Both the position numbers and the translations under genes were made by a program. The notes beneath the pieces are model-generated. The model saw only the letters and a list, made by a program, of their open reading frames with translations, did no database searches and was not told where the DNA came from. A DNA stretch of 64,000 nucleotides from Bacillota bacterium (GTDB lineage Bacteria > Bacillota > DSM-12270 > Thermacetogeniales > Thermacetogeniaceae), in NCBI GenBank assembly GCA_029907475.1, contig JARYLU010000011.1:1-64000 (forward strand). Direction: 5' to 3'. Shown here piece after piece: positions 1 through 33,590 of this stretch (positions within the stretch are counted from its first letter, which is position 1; each line of letters begins with the position of its first letter).

Positions 1-816
1 ACCCTGGCGCATGAGATCGGTCATATTGTATTGGGCCATTTAACGGATTTTGAACTAACACTCTTAAATCGGGGAGGCCTTAAACTATCAGAATACAGGG
101 TGTTAGAGCAGGAGGCTGATTGGTTTGCCGCCGAACTCCTTGCTCCCATTGCTATCTTAAAGTTCTTGGGTGTGCGGAAAACCGACGAAATAAAAAGAGT
201 TGCAAAGATTTCGTGCGCAGCTGCAGTAAACCGGATATACGAACTCGAAAACTGGGGTAAAAGCAGGCTGGCTCGCGAGGCGGATCACTGGTTTAAATCT
301 CAGTTTCAACTTTACCTTCATCAAGTGCCTGTTTGTTCTAAGAAGCAGGATTTTCCTATTAATAGCGTTGTGAGAAAATTACCGGAGGTGAGTTACATTT
401 TAAAAAAGCACCCTTTTGTTCAAGTCGATCAGAAAAAGCGTTTTTTAGTATGCCCACGCTGCGGCAACAAAAACTTTTCAGACGATGCAAATTATTGCAA
501 AATGTGTGGATTATACCTTTACAATTCCTGCACGAGAACAGAAGTAGAAAGCGATTCTCCTTCCGAATGTGGTATGATAAATCCAGGAGATGCCCGTTAC
601 TGCGAATACTGTGGTTCTCCAACCAGGCTATTGGAATTGGGACTTCTCATGACCTGGGAAGAATTAATAGAATCTCAGAAGGAGGTGGCAGCGGGCTTAG
701 ATCCTTCCTTGCAAAAAGAATCCGACAACTTCTTAGAGGACGATTTCCCCGACCTTGACGATTTTCCAGAAGGTGATGATTTATCTGATTCATTGAATGA
801 TAACTTTCCATTTTAA
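1..816 (+). CDS. ImmA/IrrE-type metallopeptidase with two zinc ribbons, 5'-truncated by the window
   Basis: The reading frame is open at base 1, so the N-terminus lies outside the window. The first visible codons give HEIGHIVLGH, the HExxH zinc-metallopeptidase motif of the ImmA/IrrE (M78) family, which in mobile elements usually cleaves a repressor. Downstream are two CxxC pairs (CPRCG...CKMCG), then ECG...CEYCG, looking like a double zinc ribbon, and a strongly acidic tail rich in DDFP. The stop is TAA at 814-816. The gene is more AT-rich than the chromosome to its right and is co-oriented with the NYN and recombinase genes, so it probably belongs to the integrated element. The target is unknown; the peptidase call is firm, the regulatory role is inferred. 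Confidence 0.8.
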   Translation, partial: TLAHEIGHIVLGHLTDFELTLLNRGGLKLSEYRVLEQEADWFAAELLAPIAILKFLGVRKTDEIKRVAKISCAAAVNRIYELENWGKSRLAREADHWFKSQFQLYLHQVPVCSKKQDFPINSVVRKLPEVSYILKKHPFVQVDQKKRFLVCPRCGNKNFSDDANYCKMCGLYLYNSCTRTEVESDSPSECGMINPGDARYCEYCGSPTRLLELGLLMTWEELIESQKEVAAGLDPSLQKESDNFLEDDFPDLDDFPEGDDLSDSLNDNFPF

Positions 817-938: not shown

Positions 939-967
939 TTGACAGGAAACAATATCGAGCATACTAT
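939..967 (+). promoter_or_regulatory. Sigma-A type promoter for structured RNA / NYN gene
   Basis: TTGACA at 939-944 and TACTAT at 962-967 are separated by 17 bp, close to the vegetative consensus. Transcription would begin near 974, just before the nested hairpin at 985-1034. Confidence 0.75.
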
Positions 968-973
968 ATAAGA

Positions 974-1077
974 GCAGAATGCTCCCTATCGTCCTCCCTC
1001 ACCCGAAACTGGGTAGAGGATAAAGGACAATAGGAAGAATGTTTCCGAAAAGCCGCTCTAGCAATGAGCGGCTTTTT
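974..1077 (+). ncRNA. Predicted structured RNA or leader of unknown class
   Basis: Between the promoter and an intrinsic terminator lies about 100 nt that folds well on paper. 985-989 pairs with 1030-1034, 991-994 with 1025-1028, 997-1000 with 1016-1019, and 1001-1004 with 1011-1014, closed by a GAAACT loop: 17 base pairs in one interrupted helix with small internal loops. A short GAGC/GCTC hairpin may precede it. No long reading frame fits inside. It may be a free small RNA or a transcription attenuator for the NYN gene, whose likely start is only 18 nt past the terminator. It does not match a riboswitch class I recognise. Confidence 0.55.
1049..1077 (+). terminator. Intrinsic terminator before the NYN gene
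   Basis: A perfect 10-bp stem (1049-1058 with 1066-1075) with a 7-nt loop is followed by a T run. It closes the structured RNA and must be read through for the NYN gene to be transcribed from the same promoter. Confidence 0.8.
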
Positions 1078-1095
1078 GTATATGGAGGGGAGAAA

Positions 1096-1635
1096 GTGCC
1101 AGAGCATCGTATTGCCTGTTTTATTGATGGCGGTTATTTGGACAAGAGTCTTAAGGATGAATTCAACTCGGTCCGCATTGACTATGCCAAACTATCTTTA
1201 TGGATGGCTAGAGATATTCCTATTTATCGAACTTATTATTATAATTGCCTTCCTTATCAAGGCAACCCTCCTACCCCCGAAGAAAGTGAAAGGTATGCGC
1301 GAGCATTGAGATTTTACGATGCACTTGAACGGCTGGATCGTTTTGAAATAAGAAGAGGAAAACTCAAAAGAATTGGTAATGATTTTACACAAAAAGGCGT
1401 GGATGTTTATTTAGCAATCGATCTTATTAAATTAAGTACAAAAGGAATTATAACTCATGCATCAGTCTTTACGGGGGATAGCGACTTTTTGCCAGTAATA
1501 CAAGCAGCAAAGGAAGAAGGGATAATTATTTACTTATATTACAGCCAAAAATATTACCCAAACACTGATTTGTGGAAGTGTTGCGATGAGAGAAGATGTC
1601 TTACTTGGGAAGTAGTGCAGTCGATCCTTAGATAA
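1096..1635 (+). CDS. NYN-domain (PIN-like) nuclease, LabA/DUF88 type
   Basis: The protein begins VPEHRIACFIDGGYLDKS, the first acidic motif (FIDGGY) of NYN domains, and later has FTGDSDFLPVI, the second acidic cluster (GDSD). These Asp residues normally bind the metal of an RNase active site. The length of about 179 residues is one NYN domain without extra domains. I chose GTG at 1096 because a strong GGAGGGG ribosome site lies at 1084-1090; an ATG at 1039 would start inside the terminator stem region. The gene is AT-rich, sits between the ImmA-like gene and the recombinase, and is preceded by a structured RNA. Family is confident; the target RNA is unknown. Confidence 0.8.
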   Translation: MPEHRIACFIDGGYLDKSLKDEFNSVRIDYAKLSLWMARDIPIYRTYYYNCLPYQGNPPTPEESERYARALRFYDALERLDRFEIRRGKLKRIGNDFTQKGVDVYLAIDLIKLSTKGIITHASVFTGDSDFLPVIQAAKEEGIIIYLYYSQKYYPNTDLWKCCDERRCLTWEVVQSILR

Positions 1636-1677: not shown

Positions 1678-3459
1678 ATGACGGTCATTAATTTTAGAAT
1701 AAGGGCCAAACCAGAGCAACAGCAGTATGCTGTCGCTCTTTACCGGGTTTCTACAGAGGATCAGTACAGGAAGGGGCTTTCTGTCCCGGAGCAAAGGGCC
1801 CGGGTAGAACACTGGGCCACAGAAAACAACGTGATCATCGTTGAAAGTCTGGAGATTCATCATTCTGCGTATCGGGGTTTTGATGAAGATCCCCGAGTTT
1901 TAGAACTTCTAGAAAAGGCGAAGAATGACCCGCGGATCTCTCTTTTTCTTGTTGACGACATCAGCAGGTTTGCGCGCCGGCGGTACTTGCAGATCGTCTG
2001 GAAGGAGGAACTGCGCCGCGCGGGGGTACGGGTCGTGGCGGTGAGTGAACCAAACTACGACCCCAGAAGCCTACATGGAATCTGGCTGGAGGGAATTAAC
2101 GAGATCCGGACAGAGGCCCGCTCCGCGGAAATCGCTTACCACACTCACAAGGGATTGTCTCGAAACGCTTTGATGCGGGATCCGGAAACCGGCTGGTGCT
2201 TCAAAAACGGATCGCTTGCTCCTGATGGTTATAAGAATATACGGGTGGTGAGAGGTAAAAATACCCGCTCCCTTGACATTGTGAAGCTGCTTTGGGAAGT
2301 TGATCCGGACAGGGCTCCCATCGTTCGTTTCATTGTGCTTGAGCTCTGGCATAAAAGAGGTATGTCTTACCGGGCCATAAGAGATTATCTTGTGTCCGAT
2401 ATGCCTAAATGGGATGGGAGAAGCGAGCCGGTTTACAACCGCTTCGGAAAACCTTGGTCCACAAGCACGATAAGAGAAATATGCATCCGGGCGCTCGAAG
2501 GCGTTTACACGGGTTATTATTACTGGAACCGCACCTGTAAAGAGTGGCGCGGGACCGGCCAAAAGTGGAAAGATCCCGAAGAGTGGATCACCGTAGAGAA
2601 CGCCCATCCTGCAATTATCACCTATGAGGAGTGGGAGGAACTTAAGAAAGATAAACTGCCAGAACTAGAAAAAAACAGGCAATTCGCCCACCGGCACGCT
2701 AGGGCGGAGAACAGTCCTTACCTTTTTTCCGGCAACAATCTAGCAGGAGAACCGCTCTTCGTATGTAAGGGGTGCGGAGGACCAATTCGGGGGCAGCAGG
2801 TAAACGACAAAAAGTATTACCTTTGCGCGAATTACAAAAACAAAGGGATTATCGCCTGCAGCTCTGCTGTACACCTACGGAAAGAGGTTGTTGAAGCAGA
2901 GGTTTTAAGAGCGCTAAAAAAGAAATATGGCCCGAAGATGCTCAAACGGATGGTAAAAAACATTAACAAGGCACTTAATGAGGAATTCAAGGATAGACAG
3001 CAAGCAATAGAAGAAATCACCGCAAACACTAAAAGGCTTCAGGATGAAGAAGCCCAAATTCTTGCTGTAATAAAGCAGGGCGCGGCAGGCGGCGCGCTCC
3101 AATCGCTCCTTGAAGAACTGGACCGTCTCCGGAAGCACAAACAAGAACTCGAAGCCGAAAAAGAGGCCCTTAGGAAAATGCCCACCCACTTTGATGTTGA
3201 TGAGGCTTCGATCTTAGCAAAGGTTCAGCACCTCGAAGAAATGATATTAAGCGATAATGTGAGCAATAAAGAGAAAAAAGAGGCTATAAAAGCTTTTGTG
3301 CGCCAGCTTATTTATGACTTCGAAACGGCCACCCTTACAGTTTTGTTCTGGCCCTTTGTCGCTGCAAATGACGGCAAAACCTTGAAATTGCTGAGAAAAT
3401 CAAAAGGAGAGGGCGGACCCTCTCCTATGACATCAGGTGGAGCCCACAACCGGGATTGA
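1678..3459 (+). CDS. Large serine recombinase (integrase)
   Basis: 593 residues. The N-terminal resolvase domain has YRVSTEDQYRKGLSVPEQ with the expected catalytic serine, then VDDISRFARR. A recombinase domain follows, then a zinc ribbon (CKGCGG...CANYKNKG...C) near residues 360-400, and a long coiled coil (about 425-500), the architecture of phage and ICE large serine integrases. It joins attachment sites without a tyrosine intermediate. The stop codon at 3457-3459 lies 22 bases inside the minus-strand tRNA-Thr gene, suggesting that the element is integrated at the tRNA 3' end. The gene is intermediate in GC between the AT-rich genes to its left and the chromosome. Confidence 0.93.
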   Translation: MTVINFRIRAKPEQQQYAVALYRVSTEDQYRKGLSVPEQRARVEHWATENNVIIVESLEIHHSAYRGFDEDPRVLELLEKAKNDPRISLFLVDDISRFARRRYLQIVWKEELRRAGVRVVAVSEPNYDPRSLHGIWLEGINEIRTEARSAEIAYHTHKGLSRNALMRDPETGWCFKNGSLAPDGYKNIRVVRGKNTRSLDIVKLLWEVDPDRAPIVRFIVLELWHKRGMSYRAIRDYLVSDMPKWDGRSEPVYNRFGKPWSTSTIREICIRALEGVYTGYYYWNRTCKEWRGTGQKWKDPEEWITVENAHPAIITYEEWEELKKDKLPELEKNRQFAHRHARAENSPYLFSGNNLAGEPLFVCKGCGGPIRGQQVNDKKYYLCANYKNKGIIACSSAVHLRKEVVEAEVLRALKKKYGPKMLKRMVKNINKALNEEFKDRQQAIEEITANTKRLQDEEAQILAVIKQGAAGGALQSLLEELDRLRKHKQELEAEKEALRKMPTHFDVDEASILAKVQHLEEMILSDNVSNKEKKEAIKAFVRQLIYDFETATLTVLFWPFVAANDGKTLKLLRKSKGEGGPSPMTSGGAHNRD

Positions 3460-3513
3460 ACCGGTGACCTCCGCCTTACCAAGGCGACGCTCTACCTACT
3501 GAGCTATGTGGGC
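3438..3513 (-). tRNA. tRNA-Thr (GGT)
   Basis: A 76-nt cloverleaf with GCCCACA acceptor arm, anticodon loop TTGGTAA (GGT) and encoded CCA. Its 3' end overlaps the last 22 bases of the serine recombinase, making it the probable integration site. Confidence 0.93.
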
Positions 3514-9045: not shown

Positions 9046-9083
9046 AAAAATCCTTTCACCTCTCCCAGAGACGAAAGGATTTC
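9046..9083 (-). terminator. T-box terminator hairpin
   Basis: AAATCCTTTCGTCTC...GAGGTGAAAGGATTTTT, the alternative to the T-box antiterminator; a long stem with a T run just upstream of cysE. Confidence 0.85.
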
Positions 9084-9315
9084 TTCCGCGGTTCCACTCT
9101 GCTTGGGCAGTAGAAAACCGCCCCGCTTTAGACTGCTAACGGTCGAACCGTTGGTACCTACTGGCTTTCGGCACCAAAGCTCCCGGGCGCACTTCGGTAC
9201 CGCTTGACCGGAACCGCTCTCAGCCGGCGGCGGTTCCTCTCTGAAGGCAGCCGGTACTTACTCTTCCCGTTCCTTGCCCTTATTCAGGGACTTCCGCCCC
9301 TTTTTAAAGTATTGT
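9046..9315 (-). ncRNA. T-box riboswitch, tRNA-Cys specific
   Basis: The leader carries the T-box sequence AGAGTGGAACCGCGG (complement of 9086-9100), the antiterminator bulge that binds the tRNA 3' end, followed by a terminator hairpin. Stem I contains a purine-rich AGTA region and the candidate specifier TGC (9189-9191), a cysteine codon followed by a purine. It controls cysE-cysS and the downstream genes by antitermination when tRNA-Cys is uncharged. Cysteine specificity fits both the codon and the genes. This fills the gap between cysE and the GbsR-type gene. Confidence 0.93.
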
Positions 9316-18784: not shown

Positions 18785-18918
18785 GCAGGAAGGCGCGAAA
18801 AAGCGGCAACCCCCGAGGGCTCCCGCCAGAAGCTTCATTTTTGTCCAAAATTTTGGATCGCCTTTAAAAAGGATTTTCACCATCAAATGGCGTATCTTAA
18901 AAACCAAGTATTTATATA

Positions 18919-19013
18919 GGATCACTGGGGGAGCCTGTGTGACAGGCTGAGAGGGAAGCTGGAGCTTCCGACCCTTTGAACCTGAACTGGGTAATGCCAG
19001 CGTAGGGAAGTGT
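18919..19013 (+). ncRNA. TPP riboswitch (THI element)
   Basis: Conserved pieces are clear: GGGGGAGCC, ACAGGCTGAGAGGGA, GACCCTTTGAACCTGA and the 3' block GGGTAATGCCAGCGTAGGGAAG. It binds thiamine pyrophosphate and, through the hairpin at 19025-19054, would shut off the AIRS-like/thiN genes when thiamine is plentiful. Confidence 0.96.
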
Positions 19014-19024
19014 TCGTTTTAACA

Positions 19025-19062
19025 GAGCCGTAACTTGCCTGCTGGTTACGGCTCGTTTATTC
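19025..19062 (+). terminator. TPP riboswitch terminator
   Basis: A perfect 10-bp stem, GAGCCGTAAC with GTTACGGCTC, followed by GTTTATT, between the aptamer and the first gene. Confidence 0.82.
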
Positions 19063-33450: not shown

Positions 33451-33590
33451 CTCCTCTTCTTATCTTTCCGGGTTTCCGGTTTCTTCCAGTCATCCCGGCG
33501 GGAATTGGCACCTTTCCCGGCATTCCTGGTGCCGGGATGGTTGCCGAAGGTTCCTCGGGCCCTTCCCTCCCCTTCTCTGGATAAGAAGAT
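33451..33590 (-). ncRNA. SAM-I riboswitch (S-box)
   Basis: Conserved pieces on the minus strand: CTTATCCAGAGAAGGGGAGGGA, GGCCCGAGGAACCTTCGGCAACC in part, GGTGCCAATTCC, and GATGACTGGAAG before the closing AGATAAGAAG. P1 pairs 33579-33590 with 33455-33464. Binding of S-adenosylmethionine would favour the terminator and switch off metX-metW-metI-metC. Confidence 0.95.

Follow-up and report, generated by a model that had tools for sequence, protein, structure and literature searches.

A conserved structured RNA beside a NYN nuclease gene in mobile elements suggests a toxin and RNA-antidote type module

A small structured RNA with its own promoter and terminator stands directly before a NYN nuclease gene in an integrated element of a Bacillota bacterium. 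We analyzed the 64,000-nt stretch of DNA that carries this locus (the window) together with homologous loci. By sequence comparison, the RNA/NYN unit is real and conserved, and it is functional in that selection maintains it. It probably represents a partner module whose RNA binds and restrains the NYN protein, like a type III or AbiF antitoxin. A type III-like toxin–antitoxin or abortive-infection system would be the most likely kind. The support at the sequence level consists of the layout, the fold of the RNA, its covariation, its tracking of NYN clades, its leader-independent position, its persistence as an orphan and the conserved acidic residues of the protein.

Base 1 of the window is the start of the contig. 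The first 3.5 kb contained, in order, a 5'-truncated gene for an ImmA/IrrE-like (Peptidase_M78) protein with zinc ribbons (1..816, + strand), the RNA/NYN unit, the large serine recombinase gene of the integrated element (1678..3459, + strand) and tRNA-Thr (GGT; 3438..3513, − strand). The final codons of the recombinase gene overlap the tRNA gene, which is the probable integration site. The ImmA/IrrE-like protein and the recombinase flanking the unit agree with the integrated-element setting proposed in a first-pass annotation. The final 20 bp of the tRNA-Thr gene (window 3438-3457) were repeated at G000:C30:4900-4919 (L240), where no tRNA is present. That repeat lies at the border of a filamentous-phage-like element with a Zot-like ATPase and a tyrosine recombinase, both called by eye. 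It is a probable attachment site, possibly that of a second element sharing the same tRNA-Thr.

The unit begins with a sigma-70-type promoter, TTGACA-17-TACTAT (939..967, + strand; 10/12 consensus matches). Promoter matches alone occurred at chance-level frequency in the region and were not rarer (4 found, 2.9 expected); canonical promoters were present at the equivalent position in homologous loci. The predicted transcript starts with a 5' hairpin, GAGCAGAATGCTC (972..984, + strand; by folding), and a similar one was found in L031 and L035. It is followed by the nested hairpin of what we call group A RNA (985..1034, + strand), which was recognized by folding and compensatory changes and scored 55.6 bits with the group A model R1. 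Its core helix, 985-994 paired with 1025-1034 (CCUAUCGUCC/GGACAAUAGG), is conserved, and its apical part is variable. Folding then placed an intrinsic terminator, a 13-bp stem with a T-run (T5), at 1046..1078 (+ strand). The ribosome binding site GGAGGGG (1084..1090, + strand) precedes the GTG start at 1096. The promoter, nested helix, terminator, and GTG start with a strong ribosome site had all been claimed in the first-pass annotation, and all of them held.

The RNA (966-1078) had a folding energy of −50.8 kcal/mol, compared with −25.0 ± 3.2 kcal/mol for dinucleotide-shuffled controls (z = −8.0, 0/200 shuffles). A single confident fold was obtained, with a probability of 0.99 for the core and the terminator. 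A pattern scan did not list this terminator, probably because its T-run lies within the stem. The window RNA and related RNAs gave no Rfam match at gathering thresholds. Weak matches of the window RNA to RsmY and Phe_leader were judged to be chance.

The nuclease gene (1096..1635, + strand) encodes 179 amino acids. The protein matched the Pfam NYN family (PF01936, E = 2.8e-13) and no other Pfam family. Its structure was modeled with a pLDDT of 95, and the best structural match was the NYN-like structure 2QIP. Residues D11, D103, D109, D128 and D130 are invariant acidic residues. The NYN profile, the PIN-like fold and the conserved acidic residues expected of a family member were all present, in line with the earlier NYN assignment. 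For NYN proteins in general, a PIN-like fold and RNase activity are predicted (cited in PMC3710099), and the window protein is predicted from its family to be a ribonuclease. Homologues of the window protein, at about 40-56% identity, came from further Bacillota families and from virus contigs, as well as from one Spirochaetia MAG and one contig of a Caldarchaeum MAG. The window and phage NYN proteins matched both PF01936 and PHROG 5783, which is annotated as 'unknown function'. Matches to the PADLOC NYN and HEC-09 models were weak.

A check of conservation and covariance had been proposed in the first-pass annotation, and its outcome was positive. NYN homologues from several Bacillota families, one spirochaete and one virus contig were accompanied by the group A RNA. 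The same arrangement and core were found upstream of NYN in L003, L004, L011, L019, L022, L024, L029, L031 and L035. These loci share the core CCYRUCGUYC...GGAYRAYRGG, and their promoters, apical loops and terminators vary. In ten sequences of the helix, both sides had changed in 4/11 pairs. In the core, compared over 14 loci, compensatory changes were observed in 5/10 pairs and 96% of cells were paired. The covariation was 0.393, compared with 0.187 ± 0.027 after shuffling, and none of 500 shuffles reached the observed value.

Model R1, built from ten group A sequences, was searched against 399 genomes. It gave seven matches of at least 46 bits; all seven were located beside NYN, and all were training members. 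The two weak R1 matches in this search were noise; R1 matches in G206 and G165 and pattern matches in L191 and L192 lay inside or beside unrelated sequence and were discarded as noise. An RNA-first search was extended to two further classes, in each of which only three genomes were found. At L018, L020 and L242-L245, whose NYN proteins are closely related to that of the window, no RNA was detected; the nuclease may thus in some cases do without one.

Related NYN genes of phages and prophages have other promoter-RNA-terminator units directly upstream. Group B RNA (TATCCGCTACGCCCGTAGGCGGGCA) was found in phage-like contigs, group C RNA with three hairpins in the Carboxydocella plasmid pCCELLA01 and in L026, group D RNA mostly in Bacillota phages and prophages, and group E RNA in lambdoid phages. 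The phage copies are located in lysogeny regions, adjoining a repressor or an integrase.

Group D RNA is one hairpin with a terminal T-run, composed of an outer stem, an AGUA/GAA strand pair, a 3-bp helix and a 4-bp helix. Its covariation was far stronger than that of group A: among 47 distinct sequences, 16/17 pairs had compensatory changes, and the covariation was 0.601, compared with 0.236 ± 0.013 after shuffling. U14 and A15 were invariant, and A44 was present in 46/47 sequences. The conserved AGUA/GAA pair, a short motif, may resemble the sarcin-ricin loop in its bulged-G module. A promoter-like sequence (at least 8/12 matches) was located directly upstream in 80/88 group D-type loci. The model search placed group D RNA upstream of NYN in 75/86 loci, many of them in the training set, and the remaining group D-type NYN loci mostly had hairpins of similar architecture. 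Weak R2 matches in G034 and G096 fell within coding sequence and were rejected. One group D RNA (L099 2375-2435) matched the full model of the Staphylococcus aureus sRNA Teg147 (RF03535) with 39.8 bits (E = 4.7e-7), below the Rfam gathering score of 56.1. Judging by this likeness, one or more relatives may already be known as transcripts; Teg147 does not match the group A RNA of the window. A weak match to the Pistol ribozyme was seen in a phage contig (L102 411-473, minus strand; 35.7 bits, threshold 34.5).

Across phages, group E RNAs share a near-identical inner core, and their promoters diverge. A coupled change from GCAGA/UCUGC to GUAGA/UCUAC was observed, and the outer stem covaries. The group E locus of E. 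coli EDL933 (L231 3924-4313) lies in a degenerate prophage in tRNA-Thr, and its NYN gene is shortened. At least part of the group E locus was present in 274/5426 E. coli genomes.

The linkage between RNA and nuclease was compared with that of other genes at the same loci. A terminator-like hairpin was present at most 140 nt upstream of 84/133 NYN genes and 59/567 other genes, under a strict automatic terminator rule that missed many model-detected RNAs. RNA class followed the NYN tree, with 15 label changes against 42.0 expected (0/200 shuffles). Because the training sequences of the RNA models were NYN-adjacent, out-of-sample testing of the association was largely confined to group D. That the two are unrelated neighbors, a host or phage sRNA or terminator merely adjoining NYN, is very improbable. 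Terminators are frequent in element neighborhoods and were found upstream of 10% of control genes, but the pairing recurs across phyla and in many phages, with covariation, clade tracking and linkage independent of orientation.

If the RNA were a cis-acting leader or attenuator, the RNA and its terminator would only gate NYN transcription on a signal, and the RNA would not bind NYN. This would fit most loci, in which RNA and terminator stand directly before the start codon. It would also fit groups D and E, in which the terminator stem belongs to the RNA, and the RNAs of L197 and L120, which precede a Schlafen AlbA_2 gene and an integrase, respectively. We nevertheless give it a low probability. 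In the NYN subclade of L023, L025 and L027, the RNA gene is located downstream of NYN and convergent to it, with its own promoter and terminator, and therefore cannot serve as a NYN attenuator there. The convergent RNAs of L023 and L027 had model scores of 25.7 and 26.9 bits (E of about 1e-5 to 1e-4 in 50-80 kb), and that of L025 was recognized by eye. The three cases may be a single evolutionary event.

RNAs without a nuclease gene also spoke against a leader. In a model-based survey of bacterial genomes, 25 RNA loci were found: 18 were followed by NYN, some of them frameshifted, six were orphans and one was followed by Schlafen AlbA_2. The orphan of L222 was accompanied by a remnant resembling the start of NYN. 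Viral orphan RNAs were near consensus, scoring 75.6 bits in L209 and 67.8 bits in L211. A leader acting only in cis and upstream is contradicted by these orphans and by the convergent RNAs. Moreover, the conserved hairpin and the terminator are distinct structures in groups A and B. An attenuator with mutually exclusive folds was also rejected: no competing antiterminator fold was found in 9/10 group A transcripts, whose terminator probability was at least 0.96 (0.59 in L003). The first-pass annotation had named a partner or antitoxin-like regulator and an attenuator as alternatives; the convergent RNAs, the orphans and the missing antiterminator fold favored the former, and a pure attenuator would leave the convergent RNAs unexplained.

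Three group D RNAs had unusual neighbors. In L209 (9252-9569), the orphan abuts a truncated fragment of a ToxN (PF13958) type III toxin gene on the opposite strand. L120 carries a second group D RNA (3444-3495, 61 bits) directly before a phage integrase, and its copy before NYN scored 28 bits. In L197 (1501-1552, minus strand; 47.7 bits), the RNA is located directly before Schlafen AlbA_2 (PF04326), beside a prophage repressor. This is possibly an effector swap behind the same RNA, and it is a poor fit with strict protein-RNA specificity.

The RNA might instead activate the nuclease, as a cofactor, guide or scaffold without which NYN would be inactive. RNA class tracks NYN clade, the two are linked in both orientations, and the inner core of group E stays nearly constant despite promoter divergence, all as expected of a cofactor. 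No variable guide region was evident in the RNAs, however, orphan RNAs would be useless, and some related NYNs have no RNA. We regard this reading as unlikely. Less likely still is that the RNA is a NYN substrate, cleaved as a leader for autoregulation or matured for another use. In its favor, NYN proteins are predicted to be RNases with a PIN-like fold, conservation of the helix covers both sequence and shape, and the RNA of type III systems is processed by the toxin itself (PMC8860590), but a substrate role alone would account neither for the orphan RNAs nor for the opposite-strand loci. A type I antisense model was rejected, as the RNA:mRNA duplex energies were at the level of shuffled mRNA in seven loci.

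A partner RNA that restrains the nuclease has precedents, so the statement in the first-pass annotation that no system of this form had been described did not stand for layout and logic. The nucleases and RNAs of the known systems are unrelated to those described here. Type III systems (ToxIN, CptIN and TenpIN) consist of a promoter, an antitoxin RNA, a terminator and a toxin endoribonuclease ORF, and their RNA classes are specific to toxin clusters (PMC8860590). The window has the same promoter-RNA-terminator-ORF order and presents what criteria (i), (iii) and (iv) of PMC8860590 describe. It differs in its nuclease, which is not of the ToxN/AbiQ family (ToxN_toxin, PF13958). Groups A, D and E also lack tandem repeats (no repeated 12-mers) and are simple hairpins, not repeated pseudoknots, and the RNA of one NYN subclade follows the nuclease gene in convergent orientation. 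In L007 (about 1250-1420), a partial NYN gene faces a convergent array of a promoter, two imperfect tandem repeats of about 36 nt and a terminator; this array resembles a classical type III antitoxin.

The AbiF-RCd22 system of the Clostridioides difficile prophage phi027 has a promoter, a structured RNA of about 100 nt, a Rho-independent terminator and a toxin ORF with its own ribosome site (PMC12373285). The RCd22 RNA binds AbiF directly and thereby neutralizes it, both in cis and in trans, and it additionally reduces expression through premature termination (PMC12373285). The layout in a mobile element is that of the window. The AbiF toxin, however, belongs to Abi_2/AbiD/F, with links to Cas13, and its RNA has two abiF motifs (PMC12373285), whereas the window protein belongs to PF01936. 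The abiF RNA motif (RF03085) was absent from all loci tested at Rfam thresholds and absent in permissive scans. As we read it, the RNA-NYN module works like ToxIN and especially like AbiF-RCd22 and belongs to neither, with another nuclease, another RNA and no repeats. A literature search found no publication that ties NYN/LabA-like nucleases to a cognate RNA. In the accessible part of the report on Hfq-bound prophage sRNAs of O157 (PMC4104026), there was no match to the NYN/RNA locus.

A predicted RNase, a clade-matched RNA, an RNA that outlives the nuclease gene and repressor or integrase neighbors together fit an RNA antitoxin restraining a nuclease. Phages can carry antitoxin mimics (pseudo-ToxI; PMC3475682), which would explain the orphan RNAs. 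The module would have two genes, one for a discrete group A RNA of about 100 nt and one for a NYN ribonuclease. Most transcripts from the promoter would end at the terminator as free RNA, and occasional read-through would give NYN mRNA. The terminator between RNA and ORF would thus yield much RNA and little protein, and premature termination probably also lowers NYN expression. As the cognate partner, the RNA would most likely bind and restrain the nuclease in the style of an RNA antitoxin. Should the RNA be lost, for example through the shut-off of host transcription by a superinfecting phage, the nuclease would be released to cleave RNA and arrest growth or the replication of the phage; activation through loss of a labile RNA during infection is a feature of the type III and AbiF systems that we carry over here as a conjecture. 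We infer that the window copy is expressed, that its RNA binds and inhibits the nuclease, that the nuclease is toxic, and that the pair has a role in defense or element maintenance.

The recurrence of the RNA/NYN pairing in viral, prophage and plasmid DNA across many bacteria suggests an unreported module of the toxin and RNA-antidote type. If this is true, the nucleases of PHROG 5783, which are spread over phages and mobile elements, would acquire both a role and a partner, and ToxN and AbiF would be joined by another kind of nuclease under RNA-antitoxin control. The structured-RNA families described here are immediately testable in laboratory strains. More tentatively, the NYN nucleases of phages, prophages, plasmids and integrated elements might be a large, so far unrecognized superfamily of effectors that each work with an RNA partner, the partners falling into five or more clade-specific families (A to E). 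Their RNAs would be antidotes, may imitate the cut site of the nuclease and, as free-standing prophage copies, could act against rival elements.

Elsewhere in the window, Rfam matches identified a T-box leader (9064-9283, − strand), a TPP riboswitch (18917-19025, + strand) and a SAM riboswitch (33457-33587, − strand).
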